Source of the DNA: Terriglobia bacterium
GTDB lineage: Bacteria; Pseudomonadota; Alphaproteobacteria; Acetobacterales; Acetobacteraceae
Direction: 5' to 3'
NCBI GenBank assembly: GCA_023511585.1
Contig: JAIMBF010000005.1
Span: 1 to 64,000, forward strand
DNA: 64,000 nucleotides
The translations under genes and the position numbers were made by a program. Of the stretch, positions 26,653 to 39,333 are shown piece by piece. Under the pieces are notes generated by a model. The model saw only the letters and a program-made list of their open reading frames with translations, was not told the origin of the DNA and made no database searches. Numbering within the stretch: position 1 is the stretch's first letter; every line of letters starts with the position of its first letter.

Positions 26653-27642
26653 ATGACCTATCTTGCTAAGCCCTACCAAAACCTGCACCAGGAAAGAGCA
26701 ACCGCATTCGGCACTTTCCGATCTTTCTCGAAACCCGGCCATGAAAAGCCTTTCGATCTCGGCAAAGCCCGAGACCAGAGCGCGCTTTGGAGCGAGATCG
26801 AGATTGATCTTGACCCGGAAGTGGCCACCTATTGGTGCTTTATGAAGCCGCAAGGGCGCCCGAGTTTTTCGGTCAAACTGCTGTCCGATATTATCGGGAT
26901 GCAGCGTAGCATCGAAGAAGAATACGGACAGCGTGCACGCAATGGCATGACACAGATCAAATATTTCGTGTTGGGATCCAAACATCCTGGCGTGTTTAGT
27001 CTGGGTGGGGATCTTCCTCTGTTTGTGGAAAAGATCCGCGCGCAAGATCGGACGGCGTTGCGGCATTATGCGCGGCTTTGCGTTGAGGCGGTCTATAACA
27101 ACGCCGTCAGCTTCCATTTGCCGATCGTCACCATCGCTTTGGTGCAGGGCGACGCCCTTGGAGGCGGTTTCGAAGCCGCTCTGGCCTGCAACATGATTGT
27201 TGCCGAACGCAGCGCAAAATTCGGTTTGCCCGAAGTGCTGTTCAATCTCTTTCCCGGCATGGGCGCTTACAGCTTTCTTTCGCGCCGCTTGGATGGGGTG
27301 CGTGCCGAGCGCATTATTTTCAGCGGCCGCACATATAGCGCCGAAGAGCTTTACGAAATGGGGCTGGTGGATCTGGTGGCGGAAGACGGCCAGGGCGAGC
27401 ACGCTGTTCGCGAATTGATCGAACGCCAGCGGCGGCGCCACAATGCCTATGAAGCAGTCTTTCAAGCGCGCCGGCGCGTGCAGCCGGTCACGCTCGAAGA
27501 GCTGCTCGACATCACCGAGATTTGGGTGGACGCGGCGCTCCGGCTGGAGGAGGCGGATCTCAAGCGGATGCTGCGCTTGGCGGCCGCGCAAGAGCGGCGC
27601 AAGCCGGCTTCCCAAACGCCGCAGCTTGTGGCAGCGGAATAA
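26653..27642 (+). CDS. rpfF: RpfF-like crotonase, putative diffusible signal factor (DSF) synthase
   Basis: This 329-residue protein is preceded by GAAGGAGAAG. Crotonase core: FSLGGDLPLF (CoA/oxyanion region), VQGDALGGGFEAALACN and GLPEVLFNLFPGMGAYSFLSRRL. Glu174 and Glu194 are 20 residues apart, matching the catalytic Glu141/Glu161 pair of Xanthomonas RpfF. The ALGGGFEAAL, LPEVLF and FPGMGAYSF blocks are characteristic of RpfF rather than of hydratases. RpfF makes cis-2-unsaturated fatty acid signals from acyl-ACP. No rpfC, rpfG or rpfR homologue is in the window. A strong bidirectional-looking hairpin follows at 27688. Confidence 0.8.
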   Translation: MTYLAKPYQNLHQERATAFGTFRSFSKPGHEKPFDLGKARDQSALWSEIEIDLDPEVATYWCFMKPQGRPSFSVKLLSDIIGMQRSIEEEYGQRARNGMTQIKYFVLGSKHPGVFSLGGDLPLFVEKIRAQDRTALRHYARLCVEAVYNNAVSFHLPIVTIALVQGDALGGGFEAALACNMIVAERSAKFGLPEVLFNLFPGMGAYSFLSRRLDGVRAERIIFSGRTYSAEELYEMGLVDLVAEDGQGEHAVRELIERQRRRHNAYEAVFQARRRVQPVTLEELLDITEIWVDAALRLEEADLKRMLRLAAAQERRKPASQTPQLVAAE

Positions 27643-29566: not shown

Positions 29567-30220
29567 TCAGCCGGCCCCGCGCAGCGCACGGATGGCTTGC
29601 TCATAGGGAGGAGCGCGGAAAACAGCCGAGCCGGCGACCAAGACATCGGCGCCTGCGGCAACCACAAGCGGCGCCGTTTCGGGGGTGATTCCGCCATCCA
29701 CCTCGATGTGGATCGGGCGGTTTCCGATCATTTGGCGAAGCCGGGCGATTTTTTCCAGAACGGCGGGAATGAAGCTTTGCCCGCCAAAGCCGGGATTGAC
29801 GCTCATCACCAGGACGAGATCGATGCGATCGAGCACGTAAGCAACGGCGCTTTCCGGCGTTGCCGGATTTAACGCCACCCCCGCCGATTTGCCGAGATTG
29901 GCAATGCTCTGCAAGGTGCGGTCCAAATGCGTAGACGCTTCAGCGTGCACGATGATCCGGTCAGCCCCGGCAGCGGCGAAAGCCTCGAGATAAGGGTCAA
30001 CGGGGGAGATCATCAAGTGCGTGTCGAAACATTTTCTGCTGTGGGGGCGGATGGCACGCACCACTTCCGGCCCGAAGGTGAGGTTCGGCACGAAATGCCC
30101 GTCCATGACATCGAGATGAATCCAATCGGCCCCTGCGGCGTCGACCGCTTCGACTTCCGCACCCAAGCGGGCGAAATCGGCGGAGAGGATCGAGGGTGCA
30201 ACCAGAATGTCTTGGACCAT
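29567..30220 (-). CDS. rpe: Ribulose-phosphate 3-epimerase
   Basis: This 217-residue TIM-barrel enzyme interconverts ribulose-5-phosphate and xylulose-5-phosphate in the regenerative phase of the Calvin cycle. Conserved blocks are [45 protein letters not shown] and [13 protein letters not shown], carrying the metal-binding His/Asp residues. Its ATG overlaps the cbbX stop (TAATG), so it is the last gene of the cbb operon (cbbE). Confidence 0.95.
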
Positions 30221-31131
30221 TATTCGGCCTCTACGCGTTCGGCGCGCGTGGCGGTTGGAACTTGAGCAAAAACGCGGCTTTGGCGAATATCCTCTTCGGT
30301 GATGATGAGAAGATCCTGTACGGTCTTCGTCCCGTCATGAGCTTCCAGCAAGCGCACGGCCTGGCGGAGGCGCGCACGATCCAAGGCGTTGCGAATCGAA
30401 CGCGCATTGGCGAAATGCGGCTGCCGGCGGCGCGCTTGGATATACTCCAGAAACGCTGCCGCTGCCGGCTTATCGAAACGGTAGTGTTGCTTTTCTAACA
30501 TTTTTTCGGCGATTTGGAAGAGTTCCTCATCCGTATAATCAGGAAAGTCGATATGGTGGGCGACACGCGAACGAAACCCCGGGTTCGCCGTAAAAAATCG
30601 CTCCATCCGATCGGCGTATCCTGCCAAAATGACCACCAAATCATCGCGCTTGGTTTCCATCACTTGGAGCAGAATCTCGATGGCTTCCTGCCCGTAATCC
30701 CGCTCGTTTTCCGGGCGATAAAGATAGTATGCCTCATCGATGAAGAGCACGCCACCCATGGCCTTTTTCAGCACTTCTTTCGTCTTGGGTGCGGTATGCC
30801 CGATATATTGGCCGACCAAGTCATCGCGGGTGACGGAAATCAGTTGGCCGGTGCGAATATAGCCGAGGCGGTGGAGAATCTCGGCCATGCGCAGCGCCAC
30901 CGTGGTTTTTCCGGTGCCGGGATTTCCGGTAAACGACATATGCAAAGTCGGGGGTTCGCTGCCGAGACCGTGTTCCCGCCGCAGCTTTTCCACCAGCAGC
31001 AAGGCCGCAATTTCGCGAATGCGGCGTTTGACAGGCTTTAGCCCGACCAGCTCGCGATCGAGTGTGGTGATGACCTCGCTTACGCCGGAGTTGGCAAACG
31101 CGGCTTGCAGATCGATGCGTTCCGTTGCCAT
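30220..31131 (-). CDS. cbbX: RuBisCO activase CbbX (AAA+ ATPase)
   Basis: This protein has 303 residues from the ATG at 31131; a longer frame opens at 31227 but lacks the conserved start. Walker A is GNPGTGKT (69-76) and Walker B is [25 protein letters not shown] is a CbbX pore-loop region, and [17 protein letters not shown] is the sensor-2 block. Red-type CbbX forms RuBP-stimulated hexamers that pull the large-subunit C-terminus to release inhibitory sugar phosphates. It lies downstream of cbbS after a 114-bp gap holding a strong hairpin. Confidence 0.95.
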
Positions 31132-31192
31132 GGAGAGATCCGAAGAAGCGCTCAAAGCACAAGCCCTTTCAGATGTATGCCGCAAGCATGCG

Positions 31193-31225
31193 AAAAAATG
31201 CGCCGGTTGCCCGTAGGCAACCGGC
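31193..31225 (-). terminator. Terminator-like hairpin between cbbS and cbbX
   Basis: Read on the minus strand, a perfect 10-bp stem (GCCGGTTGCC with GGCAACCGGC, plus-strand 31202-31211 and 31216-31225) with a 4-base loop is followed, after GCA, by six T (plus-strand A run 31193-31198). This has the form of a rho-independent terminator inside an otherwise collinear operon. It would lower cbbX-rpe expression relative to cbbLS. Confidence 0.65.
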
Positions 31226-31245
31226 AAGTTGGGGAGAGCAACGAG

Positions 31246-31665
31246 CTAATAGCGCATTCCTTCCGGTCGGTCCGTCGCGTAGGCGTGCGTGGTGTAGGCG
31301 ATGTGGCGATCTTCGAGTTCTTGACGCTCGAGCCGGAAACCTGGCTCTTCGGCCGGGCGATCGGTAATGAAGGAAAGGCGGAGCGATTCCCATCCCGCCG
31401 TGGCATCGAAAGCGGAGAGGCGGATATAGGCGCGTTTGCCGTAGACTTTGCGACATTCCTCCAAGGCGTACATAACCCCTGCGGGATCTTTCAAATCGAA
31501 CATCGGCAAACCCCACATTTCCCAATACGTGTTTCGCGGGTGGGGGTCATCGGTGAATTCGATGTTCACGGCCCAACCGTGATCCAGGCAATATTTCACC
31601 TGGGCCTTGATCTGCTCGTCGGTAAGGTCGGGTAGAAAACTGAATGTTCCTTGCGTGATTCGCAT
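31246..31665 (-). CDS. cbbS: RuBisCO small subunit, red-type form IC
   Basis: At 139 residues it is longer than green-type small subunits because of the C-terminal extension ending [14 protein letters not shown], which builds the central beta-barrel of red-type RuBisCO. The N-terminus [19 protein letters not shown] and the [15 protein letters not shown] block are typical. It partners with CbbL in an L8S8 holoenzyme in the cytoplasm. It lies 12 bases downstream of cbbL. Confidence 0.97.
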
Positions 31666-31677
31666 CGTTTTGCTCCT

Positions 31678-33162
<1,485 letters not shown>

Positions 33163-34245
33163 TCAGGCGGCATAAACGGGCGAGACAACCCGCACCGAGA
33201 ACGCGCCGCTGCGATAACGGCGTGCCATTTCCGCGAGCGGCAACGGCTTGATGCTCGCGGCATGCCCGGCGGTGCCGAACTCTTCAAAGCGCTGCGCGCA
33301 AAGCGCTTCCAGTGCCGCCATCGCGGGCTTGAGAAATGCCCGCGGGTCGAATTCCGCGGGATGCTGTTGGGCAATTCTGCGAATTTGCCCGACCATGGCG
33401 ATTCGGCAATCGGTATCGATATTGATTTTCCGCACGCCAAAGCGAATTCCCTGTTGAATTTCCTCAACCGGGACGCCCCAAGTTTGCGGCATGGCGCCGC
33501 CGTAGGCATTGAAAATGTCCTGCAACTCTTGGGGAACGGAAGAGGAACCATGCATCACGAGGTGCGTATCCGGCAAGCGCGCGTGGATTGCCTTCACAAC
33601 ATCCATGGCGAGGATATCGCCCGTGGGCTTTCGCTTAAACTTGTAGGCGCCGTGGCTTGTGCCGATTGCCACCGCGAGCGCATCCACCCCGGTGAGGCGG
33701 ACGAAATCGGCCGCTTGGTCCGGATCCGTAAGCAATTGCTCGCGCGATAGCGCTCCGGTTGCACCATGCCCGTCCTCGGCTTCGCCCGAGCCGGTTTCCA
33801 GCGAGCCAAGACAGCCAAGTTCGCCTTCGACGGAAACCCCGACTGCATGAGCCATTTCCGCTACCCGCGACGTAACGGAGACGTTATAGTTATAGTCGGC
33901 GGGGGTTTTGCCGTCTTCCTTGAGGGAGCCGTCCATCATCACCGAAGTGAAGCCGTTCTGGATTGCGGAGAGGCAGGTCGCCATGCTTTCGCCGTGATCT
34001 TGGTGAACACAAACCGGGATCTCGGGATAGGTTTCGAGGACCGCAAGAATCATGTGTCGCAGCATCGCATCGCCGGCATAAGAACGTGCGCCGCGGCTCG
34101 CCTGCAAAATAACCGGCGAGGCGGTTTTACGCGCCGCGTTCATAATGGCGAGAACCTGCTCCATATTGTTGATGTTGAACGCCGGCACGCCGTAGCCGTG
34201 TTCGGCCGCGTGATCGAGCAACTGACGCAGTGTGACCAAGGGCAT
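33163..34245 (-). CDS. cbbA: Class II fructose-1,6-bisphosphate aldolase
   Basis: This 360-residue Zn-dependent aldolase is of the Calvin-cycle subtype. Metal and substrate motifs are [36 protein letters not shown] and [25 protein letters not shown] is the phosphate-binding block. It makes fructose-1,6- and sedoheptulose-1,7-bisphosphate from triose phosphates and aldoses. It lies 39 bases after cbbT and 30 before cbbL. Confidence 0.96.
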
Positions 34246-34284: not shown

Positions 34285-36291
34285 TCAGGCTGCCTTCGCA
34301 GTCGCCAGCAACATACGCGCTTTCGCGAGAATTGCTTCAACCGTGAGGCCGAAATGTTTGTACAAATCTTCGGCCGGGGCAGAGGCGCCGAAAGTCGATA
34401 TGCTCAGAGTATGAGATTCGCTTTCGACATAACGCGTCCAGCCGAAAGGCGTTGCCGCTTCGATGGCAAGCCGCGGGGCCGAGCCGAGCGTGGCTTCGCG
34501 ATAAGCCGGGTCTTGCTCTTCGAAAAGCTCGAAACACGGCATGGAAACAACGGCCACCGGCAAACCTTCTTTCGCCAACTCTTCGCGAGCCTTAAGCGCA
34601 AGATGCACTTCCGAACCGGTTGCGAGAAGGGTAAGCGCGCGCGGCTTATGCGCTTCCGCAACGACGTAAGCGCCGCGTGCACAGAGATTCTCTTCGGTTG
34701 CCTCGGTGCGGATAAAGGGTAATGACTGGCGAGAAAGCGTAAGCACGCTCGGCCGATTTTGGTTTTTGAGCGCGAGTTCCCAGCACTCTGCCGTCTCTAC
34801 CGCATCCGCCGGGCGAAACACCAAGATGTTGGGCATCGCGCGAAGGCTTGCCAAATGCTCGATGGGTTGATGGGTGGGGCCGTCTTCGCCAAGGCCGATG
34901 GAATCGTGCGTCATGACGTAGATGACGCGGAGACCCATGAGTGCGGAGAGCCTGATTGCCGGGCGGCAATAATCGGAAAATACCAAGAACGTGCCGCCGT
35001 AGGGGATGAAGCCCCGATGCAGAGCGAGCCCGTTCATGATAGCGGCCATGGCATGTTCGCGCACGCCGAAATGAATATAACGGCCCGAGAAGTCACCCCT
35101 CTCAATCGCCCGCATGCATTTGGCGAGAGTGTTGTTGGAATGCGTGAGATCGGCCGAACCGCCGATGAGTTCCGGCAGCGAAGGCGCAATGGCATTCAAA
35201 GTTTCTTCGCTTGCCTTGCGTGTTGCCAGCGCGGGTTTACGGGTGACCAATTCCGCTTTGAACGAGCGAATTGCGTGAGAGAAACTGTCTGGGAGGTGCC
35301 CTTCCAGAGTGCGCAAAAATTCTTCGCGAAGCGCCGGATCGGTCGTTGCAAGAGAGCGTTCCCAGGCTCTCCGAACCGGTTTGCCGCGCAGCCCGATGTG
35401 CCGCCAAACATTGCGGATTTCCGGAGGCACCGTAAAGGGCGGCGCTTTCCACCCAAGCTCGGCGCGCGTTGCTGCAACCTCTTCCGGGCCGAGCGGTGCG
35501 CCATGAACGGCAGCCTGCCCTTGTTTGTTCGGTGCGCCGAAACCGATGATGGTGCGGCAGGCAATCAGCGAGGGGCGCGGATCCAGCCGCGCCGCTTCGA
35601 TCGCACGGGCAATCGCTTCCGGATCATGGCCGTTCACCGCCTGTATGTGCCAGCCATAGGCGGTAAAACGCAGCAGCGTATCGTCGGAGCAAGCAAGGCG
35701 TGTCGGGCCATCGATGGTAATGGCGTTGTCATCGTAAAGCACAATGAGCCTGCCCAACCCCAGATGGCCGGCGAGAGAGGCGGCCTCATGCGAAATGCCT
35801 TCCATCAGACAGCCGTCGCCGGCGATGACATAGGTTCGATGATCGACAAGCCTCCGCGAGAACCGCTCGGCTAACAATTTTTCGGCGAGTGCCATGCCGA
35901 CGGCAGCGGCAAATCCTTGCCCAAGCGGGCCTGTTGTTGTTTCCACACCCGGTGTGTGGCCGTATTCCGGATGCCCGGGGGTAAGCGAACCCAATTGGCG
36001 GAAATGGCGTATCTCTTCGATGGTGACCGCTGCAAAGCCAGTAAGATGCAGCAGCGCGTAAAGCAGCATCGAACCGTGGCCTGCGGAAAGCACGAACCGA
36101 TCGCGATCCGGCCAGTCAGGGCACTCGGGGTCGAATTTCAGGAAGCGGCTCCAGAGCACGGTTGCGGCGTCCGCCATTCCCATCGGCATGCCGGGATGAC
36201 CGGACTTTGCGCGCTCCACGGCATCCACCGCCAGCATACGCACGGCATTTGCAAGATCATGATGAGAAATCGCACGGTCGAGATGAGCCAT
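34285..36291 (-). CDS. cbbT: Transketolase
   Basis: This 668-residue ThDP enzyme has [38 protein letters not shown] as the ThDP-binding motif (GDG...N). [28 protein letters not shown] contains the catalytic Glu of the Pyr domain, and [20 protein letters not shown] the substrate-binding His. It transfers two-carbon units between sugar phosphates in the regenerative phase. It lies 13 bases downstream of cbbP. Confidence 0.97.
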
Positions 36292-36304: not shown

Positions 36305-37180
36305 TTATAGAACCCGGCGGCTGCGTTCTACCAACTGCAAAATCAACGGCGTGAGGATAAGCTGCATGGCAAGATCGAGTTTGTTTCCAGGAATAACGAT
36401 GGAATTCGCACGCGACATGAAACTGTTTTGAATCATCGTGACCAAATAGGGAAAGTCGATTCCGCGCGGATTGGCAAAACGAATGACGACCATAGATTCA
36501 TCCGGCGTAGGGATCCAGCGGGCGACGAAAGGATTGGAGGTATCAACCGTCGGCACGCGCTGAAAATTGATGTCGGTTTGCGTGAACTGCGGGCAGATGT
36601 AGTGCACGTAATCATGCATGCGGCGAAGGATGGTGTTCATCACTTCTTCCGTGGAATAACCGCGTGTTGTGCGATCGCGATGGATTTTCTGTATCCACTC
36701 TAAATTGATGACGGGGACTACGCCGATTTTGAGATCGGCATGCCGTGCGACGTTGACGGTTTCCGTTACCACCGCGCCGTGCAAGCCTTCGTAGAAAAGC
36801 AGATCCGTGCCGGAAGGAAGCTCTTCCCAAGGCGTGAAAGTTCCCGGCGGGGCGCCGTAGAGTTCTGCTTCTTTCTCATCGTGCACGTAGTGACGCGTCC
36901 GGCCCGAGCCGTTCATGCCGTATTGGGCGAAAAGCGCTTCCAACTCTTCAAACAGATTTGCTTCCGGCCCGAAATGGCTGAAATGATGGTTGCCGAGTTT
37001 CTCCTGCTCGCGCATGGCCGCTTTCATTCCTTCCCGGTCGTAGCGGTGAAAAGCATCGCCCTCGATGAAAGCGGCGTTAATCTTTTCGCGTCGAAATATT
37101 TGCTCGAAGGTGTGCTTGACCGTCGTTGTTCCAGCGCCCGAAGAGCCGGTGACGGAAATGATCGGGTGCTTCAGCGACAT
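36305..37180 (-). CDS. cbbP: Phosphoribulokinase
   Basis: This 291-residue class I (proteobacterial) phosphoribulokinase phosphorylates ribulose-5-phosphate to the RuBisCO substrate. The P-loop is GSSGAGTTT (12-20), followed by [19 protein letters not shown], with the catalytic Asp, and YEGLHGAVV. Its start lies inside the last 10 bases of cbbF, so the two are translationally coupled. Confidence 0.97.
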
Positions 37181-38229
37181 CCGGGAAAGCCCTCTTCGCT
37201 ACGGAATAAACTGCGCCGACCGAAGAGGGGCGAGCGCTCTCCAACGGCCAGCTTGCTGGAATAATAGGCGACGAGCCGCGCCACCTCGTCGGCCGAGCCG
37301 AAAACGAGCGGCGTGCGCTGATGGAGCCCGACGGGTTCAAGCTCCATAATGCGCGTGAGCCCGTTGGTGGCGGCGCCATGGGCCTGCTCAATGACGAAGG
37401 CCAAGGGGTTGGCCTCGTAAAGGAGGCGCAGCCGGCCTTGCGCGTATCCCGGCCGGTGATCGGCAGGATAGAGGTAAATGCCCCCGCGGATGAGGATCCG
37501 GAAGGCTTCCGCAACAACGGAAGCGAGCCAGCGCATGTTGTAATCGACGCCGTTGGGGCCGTCGCGTCCGGCCAGACAATCTTCGATAAAGGCACGCACT
37601 CGCTTATCCCAATGGCGGAAATTCGAGGCGTTGATCGCAAATTCCTGGCTATTTTGGGGGATGGAGAGATTTTCTTTGGCTAAAAGAAAGTCCCCGGACG
37701 CGGGGTGAAGCACAAAAAGATGGGTTCCCTCGCCAAGGGTAAGAACCAGAGCGACCTGCGGCCCGTAGAGAAAAAATCCGGCAGCGAGCTGCCGGGAGCC
37801 CGCTTGCAGAAGCGATTGCTCTGCTCCTTTCTCGGCAAGGGAGGGCAGAATGGAAAAAATCGTCCCGACGGAGAGGTTGGTTTCAATGTTGGAAGAGCCG
37901 TCCAACGGGTCGATCGCGACCACCAAAGGCGCTGTGGTGTCGCATTCCATGGCGTGATCTTCTTCCTCGGAAGCGATCGCCGCGACAGGGGCGCTGCGGA
38001 GTGCATCCACACATATTTGGTGGGCCAAGACGTCGAGCTTTTTTTGCTCATCACGTCCGGCGTTGACGCTGACCGTTGCACCGAGGGAACCTGCCAAGGG
38101 ACCCAAAGCCAAAAGGCCGGCGATTTGCTTTGCTGCCTCGGCTAAGGCGAGAACGGTTTGAGCAACCGCATGACGCGGCGGGGCTTTTGCGGCCCAAGCA
38201 TGTAACGAGTCTGCCAAAGTTTGGCGCAT
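37171..38229 (-). CDS. cbbF: Class I fructose-1,6-bisphosphatase
   Basis: This protein has 352 residues from the ATG at 38229; a GTG three bases upstream is closer to the GGAGGGG ribosome site than is usual. Metal sites are ASEEEDHAM and VVAIDPLDGSSNIETN, the FBPase hallmark; LYPADHRPGYAQGRLRLLYEANPLAF is the C-terminal block with a catalytic Glu. It is the first gene of the cbb operon, divergent from cbbR. Confidence 0.96.
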   Translation of the reverse strand: MRQTLADSLHAWAAKAPPRHAVAQTVLALAEAAKQIAGLLALGPLAGSLGATVSVNAGRDEQKKLDVLAHQICVDALRSAPVAAIASEEEDHAMECDTTAPLVVAIDPLDGSSNIETNLSVGTIFSILPSLAEKGAEQSLLQAGSRQLAAGFFLYGPQVALVLTLGEGTHLFVLHPASGDFLLAKENLSIPQNSQEFAINASNFRHWDKRVRAFIEDCLAGRDGPNGVDYNMRWLASVVAEAFRILIRGGIYLYPADHRPGYAQGRLRLLYEANPLAFVIEQAHGAATNGLTRIMELEPVGLHQRTPLVFGSADEVARLVAYYSSKLAVGERSPLFGRRSLFRSEEGFPGCR

Positions 38230-38303
38230 CACGTCCCCTCCATACTCGGATTCTTTGAGGGCCGGCGTGTCGGTTGGAGGCCGCTCCCCGTAGGAGCCGA
38301 GTG

Positions 38304-38333
38304 ATAACGGTTATTGCCGGTATTGCTCGGCAA
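38304..38333. promoter_or_regulatory. Tandem inverted repeats in the cbbF-cbbR spacer, candidate CbbR operators
   Basis: Two adjacent dyads lie in the 129-bp divergent spacer: ATAAC-G-GTTAT (38304-38314) and TTGCCG-N8-CGGCAA (38314-38333). The position close to cbbR and 72 to 100 bases before cbbF fits a LysR-type regulator controlling both directions. They do not fit the textbook T-N11-A spacing exactly. Assignment to CbbR is inferred. Confidence 0.45.
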
Positions 38334-38358
38334 AACAATTTTTATTATTTTTTACTCG

Positions 38359-39333
38359 ATGAAAGATTCTCTTAAACGTATGGTGCAACGCCTGACGCTC
38401 AAGCAGCTTCGTGCGGTAGCGGCCATTGCGGAGGCCGGCACGATCAGCGGCGCGGCCGCCCGGATAGGGCTTACGCCGCCTGCGCTGCTGCAGCAGATGA
38501 AGCTGTTGGAGGAGACATTGCGCGTGCCGCTCTTGGAGCGGCGGGCGGGCCTTGCGGTTCCGACCGAAGCCGGGCGAGAGGTGCTGGCGGCGGCTGCCCA
38601 GATCGAGGGGATTCTCGGCGATTGCGTGGAAGCGATCACCGCATTGCGCAACAATGAAAGCGGGCAGGTGGCGGTCGCCGTGATCAGCACGGCGAAATAT
38701 TTCGCCCCGGCAGCGTTGGCGGCGTTTCAGCGGGCGCACCCGAATATCGAGCTTCGCCTGCAGGTGGCCAATCGGCGCGATACTATTGCGGCATTGGAAA
38801 AATACGAGGTGGATTTCGCGTTGATGGGGCGTCCGCCGCAGGACTTTCCCGTTATGGCAGCGGCGATCGGAGAGCATCCGCATGTCATCATTGCGCCTTG
38901 GGACCACCCGTTCGCGGGGGTACCGCGTATTCCTCTCAGCGCTTTGCAAAACGAGACCTTTCTCTCACGCGAAAAAGGATCGGGCACCCGCCTTCTGGAA
39001 GAGAAGCTTTTTGCGGAAGCGGGGGTAAAGCCGAAAGCCGCCGTCGAGCTCGGCAGTAACGAGACAATCAAACAAGCCGTTATCGCCGGGATGGGGGTTG
39101 CCTTACTCTCCGCCCATACCATCGCGGCGGAATATGCCAGCCATCGCCTAGCCATTCTCGATGTGGTGGGCACCCCGATCGTGCGACAATGGTTTGTCGT
39201 GAAGCGGCAGGAGAAGCGGCTGCTGCCGGCCGCCCAATCGCTTTGGGATCATTTCGTGCGGGAAGGGCATAGGTTTTTGCCGGACATCAAGCTTGACGCG
39301 CACGCACCAGCCGCGCCTCCTGTGTCTTCTTAA
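38359..39333 (+). CDS. cbbR: LysR-type transcriptional regulator of the cbb operon
   Basis: This protein has 324 residues from the ATG at 38359; an in-frame ATG at 38380 would also retain the domain. Neither start has a good ribosome site. The N-terminal winged helix reads LTLKQLRAVAAIAEAGTISGAAARIGLTPPALLQQMKLLEETL, followed by a periplasmic-binding-protein-like effector domain (GQVAVAVISTAKYFAP..., KQAVIAGMGVALLSAHTI). CbbR senses metabolites such as RuBP or NADPH and activates cbb genes. Divergent position beside cbbF supports the role. Confidence 0.92.
   Translation: MKDSLKRMVQRLTLKQLRAVAAIAEAGTISGAAARIGLTPPALLQQMKLLEETLRVPLLERRAGLAVPTEAGREVLAAAAQIEGILGDCVEAITALRNNESGQVAVAVISTAKYFAPAALAAFQRAHPNIELRLQVANRRDTIAALEKYEVDFALMGRPPQDFPVMAAAIGEHPHVIIAPWDHPFAGVPRIPLSALQNETFLSREKGSGTRLLEEKLFAEAGVKPKAAVELGSNETIKQAVIAGMGVALLSAHTIAAEYASHRLAILDVVGTPIVRQWFVVKRQEKRLLPAAQSLWDHFVREGHRFLPDIKLDAHAPAAPPVSS

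Follow-up and report, generated by a model that had tools for sequence, protein, structure and literature searches.

A conserved terminator-like hairpin between cbbS and cbbX in one clade of Alphaproteobacteria

Overview

We identified a short GC-rich hairpin followed by a T tract between cbbS and cbbX of a cbb operon that is encoded on the minus strand in the order cbbF-cbbP-cbbT-cbbA-cbbL-cbbS-cbbX-cbbE (rpe). This element is likely to be a constitutive intrinsic terminator of partial efficiency. RNA polymerase leaving cbbS would transcribe the hairpin with its U tract and release the transcript there in a fixed fraction of passes, and the remaining polymerases would read through into cbbX and rpe, with the outcome that activase and epimerase would be dosed below the products of the six genes upstream. 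Short transcripts would carry the hairpin at their 3' end, which would additionally shield them against 3'-5' exonucleases. Termination, its partial nature and its role in gene dosage are all inferred from the sequence. The initial annotation had proposed a stoichiometry-setting device that makes RuBisCO mRNA abundant and the activase and rpe messages rarer. Because cbbF, cbbP, cbbT and cbbA precede cbbLS, termination after cbbS would lower only cbbX and rpe relative to the six upstream genes; the second part of the proposal is retained, and a specific rise of RuBisCO mRNA is not.

The element and its operon

The gap between cbbS and cbbX was 114 nt long and corresponded exactly to positions 31132-31245 of the window (the whole 64-kb stretch of DNA that was analysed), with the cbbS stop codon (TAG) at 31248-31246 on the minus strand and the cbbX ATG at 31131. 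Alternatively, cbbX may start at a TTG (31155), for which GAAAGGG lies at 31170-31164. Read on the minus strand, the hairpin begins 20 nt after the cbbS stop and has the sequence GCCGGTTGCC-TACG-GGCAACCGGC (31225-31202), forming 10 perfect Watson-Crick pairs, with an 11th pair (T-G) possible, and a folding energy of -19.7 kcal/mol in isolation. A perfect 10-bp, terminator-like hairpin with T6 on the operon strand had been described at this place, and the sequence bears this out; the description had omitted a 3-nt spacer, GCA (31201-31199), between the stem and T6. An intrinsic terminator calls for a stem of at least about five GC-rich pairs with a short loop and for a U tract closely after it; here, there are 10 pairs, a 4-nt loop and T6 past the spacer. 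No T run follows the stem on the opposite strand, and the signal is thus one-directional, along the operon. The strongest terminators have fewer than 3 nt between stem and U tract, which counts against the terminator reading; the 3-nt spacer would fit partial efficiency. Coordinates of the element and of the cbb genes are given in Table 1.

Table 1. Predicted element and cbb genes in the window
Feature	Position	Strand	Basis
cbbR-like LysR regulator, divergent	38314..39333	+	NCBIfam CbbR model is best match, below its cut-off
cbbF, fructose-bisphosphatase, first operon gene	37171..38232	-	
cbbP, phosphoribulokinase, upstream in operon	36305..37180	-	
cbbT, transketolase, upstream in operon	34285..36291	-	
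cbbA, class II fructose-bisphosphate aldolase, upstream in operon	33163..34245	-	
cbbL, RuBisCO large subunit	31678..33132	-	NCBIfam PRK04208 above cut-off
cbbS, RuBisCO small subunit	31246..31665	-	ORF, collinear homologues; no match among NCBIfam models
Putative terminator hairpin, GC-rich perfect 10-bp stem, TACG loop	31202..31225	-	Sequence, rarity in window, covariation in 7 distinct loci
T6 (U6) tract	31193..31198	-	Sequence; T4-T7 in 7/7 clade members
cbbX, RuBisCO activase	30220..31131	-	NCBIfam TIGR02880 above cut-off
cbbE (rpe), start overlaps cbbX stop	29567..30220	-	NCBIfam TIGR01163

The site was the only one on either strand of the whole window with a perfect stem of at least 8 bp and T4 within 3 nt. 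Based on 200 dinucleotide shuffles, 0.245, 0.10 and 0.02 such sites per window were expected for stems of 8, 9 and 10 bp, respectively. A looser terminator scan had the cbbS-cbbX site as its top-listed match, but its count, 25 terminator-like sites in 16 kb versus 22.0 expected, is uninformative alone and was given no weight as separate evidence. The second-listed site of the scanned region (37778-37795, minus strand), a 7-bp hairpin followed by ATTTTTT, lies inside cbbF coding sequence and is chance-like. In 459,831 bases of the same genome (the window and 40 further stretches), five sites had a perfect stem of at least 8 bp and T4, the window's site included, and only one of the others, L135:2935-2960 (minus strand), had a stem longer than 8 bp. 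This 11-bp stem, followed by T5 with no spacer, is located 31 nt past the end of a gene, and the neighbouring gene points towards it; it looks like a textbook intrinsic terminator between two gene ends and may serve as a useful positive control. Near the cbb region, we also observed a crotonase-fold protein (26653-27642, plus strand); one of its NCBIfam matches is RpfF, a diffusible signal factor synthase, at 255.7 bits against a cut-off of 550.

Conservation within one clade

In a sample of 397 genomes of the family, cbbS was detected in 46 at an E-value of 1e-20 or better, and 45 remained after L005, which is cut by a contig end, was set aside. In 42 of these 45 genomes cbbX was found no more than 1.5 kb downstream of cbbS, directly next to it in 33 and with a gene between in 9. 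When the 33 gaps were read by eye, a strong hairpin followed by T4-T7 was present at this place in seven. Besides the window itself, the carriers were five species that belong to a single genus and one species from a third genus. Within the genus with five carriers, all five genomes having cbbS (six genomes were searched) carried both hairpin and T tract. In a tree of 113 CbbS+CbbX rows, the seven distinct carrier loci (the window, L088, L089, L090, L091, L094 and L100, from three genera) formed one clade with a support of 99, with L008 and L009 standing for the identical L090 and L088. The sister group of this clade comprised 15 rows, none of which carried a site of this kind close to the stop codon of cbbS; in two of them, L014 and L068, weaker T-followed hairpins occurred far from cbbS. 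The initial annotation had regarded loss of the stem beside a collinear cbbX as evidence against its reading; the stem is kept throughout the clade, but such evidence does exist outside it, where most collinear relatives lack the stem.

Stem letters vary between species within the clade, and the place of the stem and the T tract are constant. An alignment of the seven hairpins had 97.4% of its 77 cells paired and 2 of 77 unpaired. Five of the 11 stem pairs were invariant and are thus uninformative on structure; four had changed on both sides, and compensatory changes were found across the seven loci, which is the covariation in related cbb operons that had been suggested as a check. Among 500 shuffles of the alignment, 0, 13, 1, 9 and 1 reached the five observed measures, including none for cells paired and one for the covariation score. 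Related rows may exceed shuffles without any structure, yet slid registers of the same alignment, which retain the relatedness, paired at only 34 to 58%, far below the observed value. RNAalifold recovered the same stem unprompted.

Downstream of the T tract, a Shine-Dalgarno-like GGAG or AAGGG precedes the cbbX ATG in L089, L090, L094 and L100. In all six clade loci with enough downstream sequence, rpe lies close behind cbbX, overlapping or abutting it in five and about 40 nt away in L091. An additional feature of the whole clade is C-rich sequence immediately before the stem (CCCC to CCCCCC followed by GACTG or AACT), at 31226-31245 in the window and at the same place in L088-L091, L094 and L100.

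Comparison with known systems

Termination inside a cbb operon after cbbS is an already known kind of device. In Ralstonia eutropha (Cupriavidus necator) H16, Schaeferjohann, Bednarski and Bowien (J Bacteriol 1996) reportedly mapped 3' ends past a stem-loop downstream of cbbS, and their deletions are said to have shown that this stem-loop terminates transcription prematurely, before cbbX. The initial annotation knew of no standard description of such an element for cbbX; the reported R. eutropha case is one. As in the R. eutropha cbb operons, the hairpin directly follows cbbS and precedes cbbX and further distal cbb genes of one operon. However, cbbLS come first in R. eutropha, so that termination there sets RuBisCO apart from all other enzymes, whereas cbbF, cbbP, cbbT and cbbA also lie upstream in our operon and only cbbX and rpe downstream. 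In the R. eutropha pHG1 locus, a 156-nt gap separates the annotated cbbS from cbbX, and the prediction places a long, imperfect stem rich in GC right after cbbS; T4 does not follow this stem, in contrast to the short, perfect stem with T6 described here, and no sequence relation between the two stems was seen. The two elements probably work alike, but since stems and gene orders differ, no kinship is claimed.

With intrinsic (Rho-independent) terminators in general, the element shares a GC-rich stem, a short loop and a U tract on the RNA strand; it differs from the typical form in its location within an operon, in its 3-nt spacer and in being presumably leaky. In the Rhodobacter puf operon, likewise alphaproteobacterial, an intercistronic hairpin lies between the abundant and the scarcer parts of the operon and acts via RNA decay; the conserved U tract here points instead to termination. 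A search of the available literature found no paper describing a terminator that follows cbbS and precedes cbbX, and the available parts of PMC2942843, PMC5506194, PMC9833100 and PMC2864759 do not describe the cbbS-cbbX site.

Given the covariation, an alphaproteobacterial lineage in which only activase and epimerase can drop very likely also has a terminator after cbbS like the one reported for Ralstonia. The mechanism itself would be ordinary; it would offer a clean natural test of the amount of CbbX needed by a red-type RuBisCO, which would be useful for moving such RuBisCOs into plants.

Alternative explanations

It is unlikely that the hairpin acts mainly as an RNA stability element, at which exonucleases would be halted on transcripts cut or nibbled from the 3' side, so that the upstream part would persist, as in the puf operon of Rhodobacter. 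In sequence, a hairpin for stabilisation or processing would look much like a terminator, and strong GC hairpins, mostly without T4 (21 of 26), were found after cbbS in many other Alphaproteobacteria. However, a stability hairpin needs no T tract, and T4-T7 was kept in all seven clade members; the stem deletions in R. eutropha reportedly favoured termination over stability as well.

We consider it improbable that a complete terminator ends the operon and that cbbX and rpe are expressed from a promoter of their own. In favour of it, the 157-nt gap of L091 could hold one, and our promoter scan covered only sigma-70-like types. Against it, no sigma-70-like site was found on the minus strand in the cbbS-cbbX gap, and in L089, L090, L094 and L100 the cbbX ATG lies only 14-17 nt past the T tract, which leaves almost no room for a separate promoter unless it overlapped the hairpin. 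The retention of cbbX in these loci, with rpe close behind, suggests that cbbX is expressed, probably by read-through, which would make the terminator leaky.

The element had also been termed an attenuator. Regulated attenuation, in which a signal (translation of the cbbS end, a metabolite or a protein) would decide whether the RNA folds as terminator or as antiterminator, has a very low probability. The C-rich stretch before the stem might be taken as a hint of such control. Nevertheless, predictions with 150 nt of cbbS plus the gap as context gave the stem a pairing probability of ~0.99 and no competing fold in any of the seven loci, suggesting a fixed rather than a switched signal. In addition, the cbbS stop, 20 nt ahead of the stem, is probably outside the ribosome footprint, and no Rfam family was matched in the window. 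No antiterminator, leader peptide or known RNA family was seen, the upstream reading frame being cbbS itself.

Chance, or a repeated palindrome with no role in expression, is the least credible origin; repeat-like palindromes do occur at the same place in the Rhodopila gaps L014, L056 and L068, but the single match in the window's own genome, the expectation of 0.02 per window, the covariation, and stem letters that vary between species at a constant place with a constant T tract all speak against it. A REP-like repeat was rejected in particular, as several copies are required and the genome has one match. The degenerate pattern GCCGG..CCGGC..TTTT occurred at 1 to 13 places per genome in seven genomes versus 1 to 7 for the reversed control, a count that is uninformative.

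Hairpins after cbbS in other lineages

We further compared cbbS-cbbX gaps more widely. The 121 collinear loci gave 113 distinct gaps, including 15 shorter than 30 nt, 9 with a gene between and 89 that were tested for stems; exclusion of the gene-between cases left 104 distinct collinear loci. L005 (contig end) and L006 and L007 (remote) were left out of the gap counts, L001 and L002 represented the window, cbbX was absent downstream in L073, L121, L126 and L129, and L075 had no cbbS. Perfect stems of at least 8 bp were present in 26 of the 89 gaps compared with 1.58 expected from shuffles. T4 followed the stem in 5 of 89, which is a lower count because the longest-perfect-stem method misses L008, L089, L091 and L100 (wobble, bulge or mismatch). 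Three other stretches served as controls: cbbL-cbbS gaps of at least 30 nt (stems in 10 of 22, 0.55 expected), 110 nt after cbbX (5 of 102, 2.20 expected) and 110 nt of cbbS coding sequence (10 of 104, 2.37 expected), with T4 in 0/22, 0/102 and 0/104, respectively. Thus, among the four types of stretch, the combination of stem and T tract was confined to the cbbS-cbbX gap, and plain hairpins also occurred in long cbbL-cbbS gaps. An energy-based scan of L003 to L087 and the window detected further T-tract cases in other lineages (L020, L053, L064 and L087; weaker ones in L014 and L068).

Outside the carrier clade, most collinear relatives had short gaps with no such hairpin, and in many of them (e.g., L010, L103, L106 and L107) cbbS and cbbX overlap or nearly so, which indicates that the terminator is dispensable across the group. 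Judged from these loci, the putative device is a lineage-specific setting and no general requirement for CbbX or for a working cbbLSX operon. A more speculative idea, which we hold only tentatively, is that Alphaproteobacteria with red-type RuBisCO acquired hairpins 3' of cbbS several times independently, as a convergent setting of the RuBisCO:activase ratio that would operate by termination or by RNA stability depending on the lineage, and elsewhere by gene overlap and translation. The stems in the 26 gaps bear on this idea in that their sequences are unrelated and only some have a U tract; however, the enrichment in cbbL-cbbS gaps as well suggests that hairpins may be common in such spacers generally, which weakens it.

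Several other arrangements were observed in these spacers. Rhodobacterales loci, including L017, L062, L069, L074, L079 and L082, had short GC hairpins (GGGGGC...GCCCCC type, then C-rich) right after cbbS with no T tract; a genome-wide repeat was rejected as their source, as the strict pattern had only 0 to 3 matches per genome in five genomes. Perfect stems of 8 to 12 bp were found in the long cbbL-cbbS gaps of L025, L031, L042, L053, L059, L062, L064, L066, L069 and L079. The palindromes of the three Rhodopila loci, which fill the cbbS-cbbX gap, were of the GTCATGGCCGGGC or GTCATGGCGGGCG type. In L123, most of the 185-nt gap between cbbS and cbbX is taken up by a long, imperfect inverted repeat whose ends carry GTTCTTTTCTGAAG.
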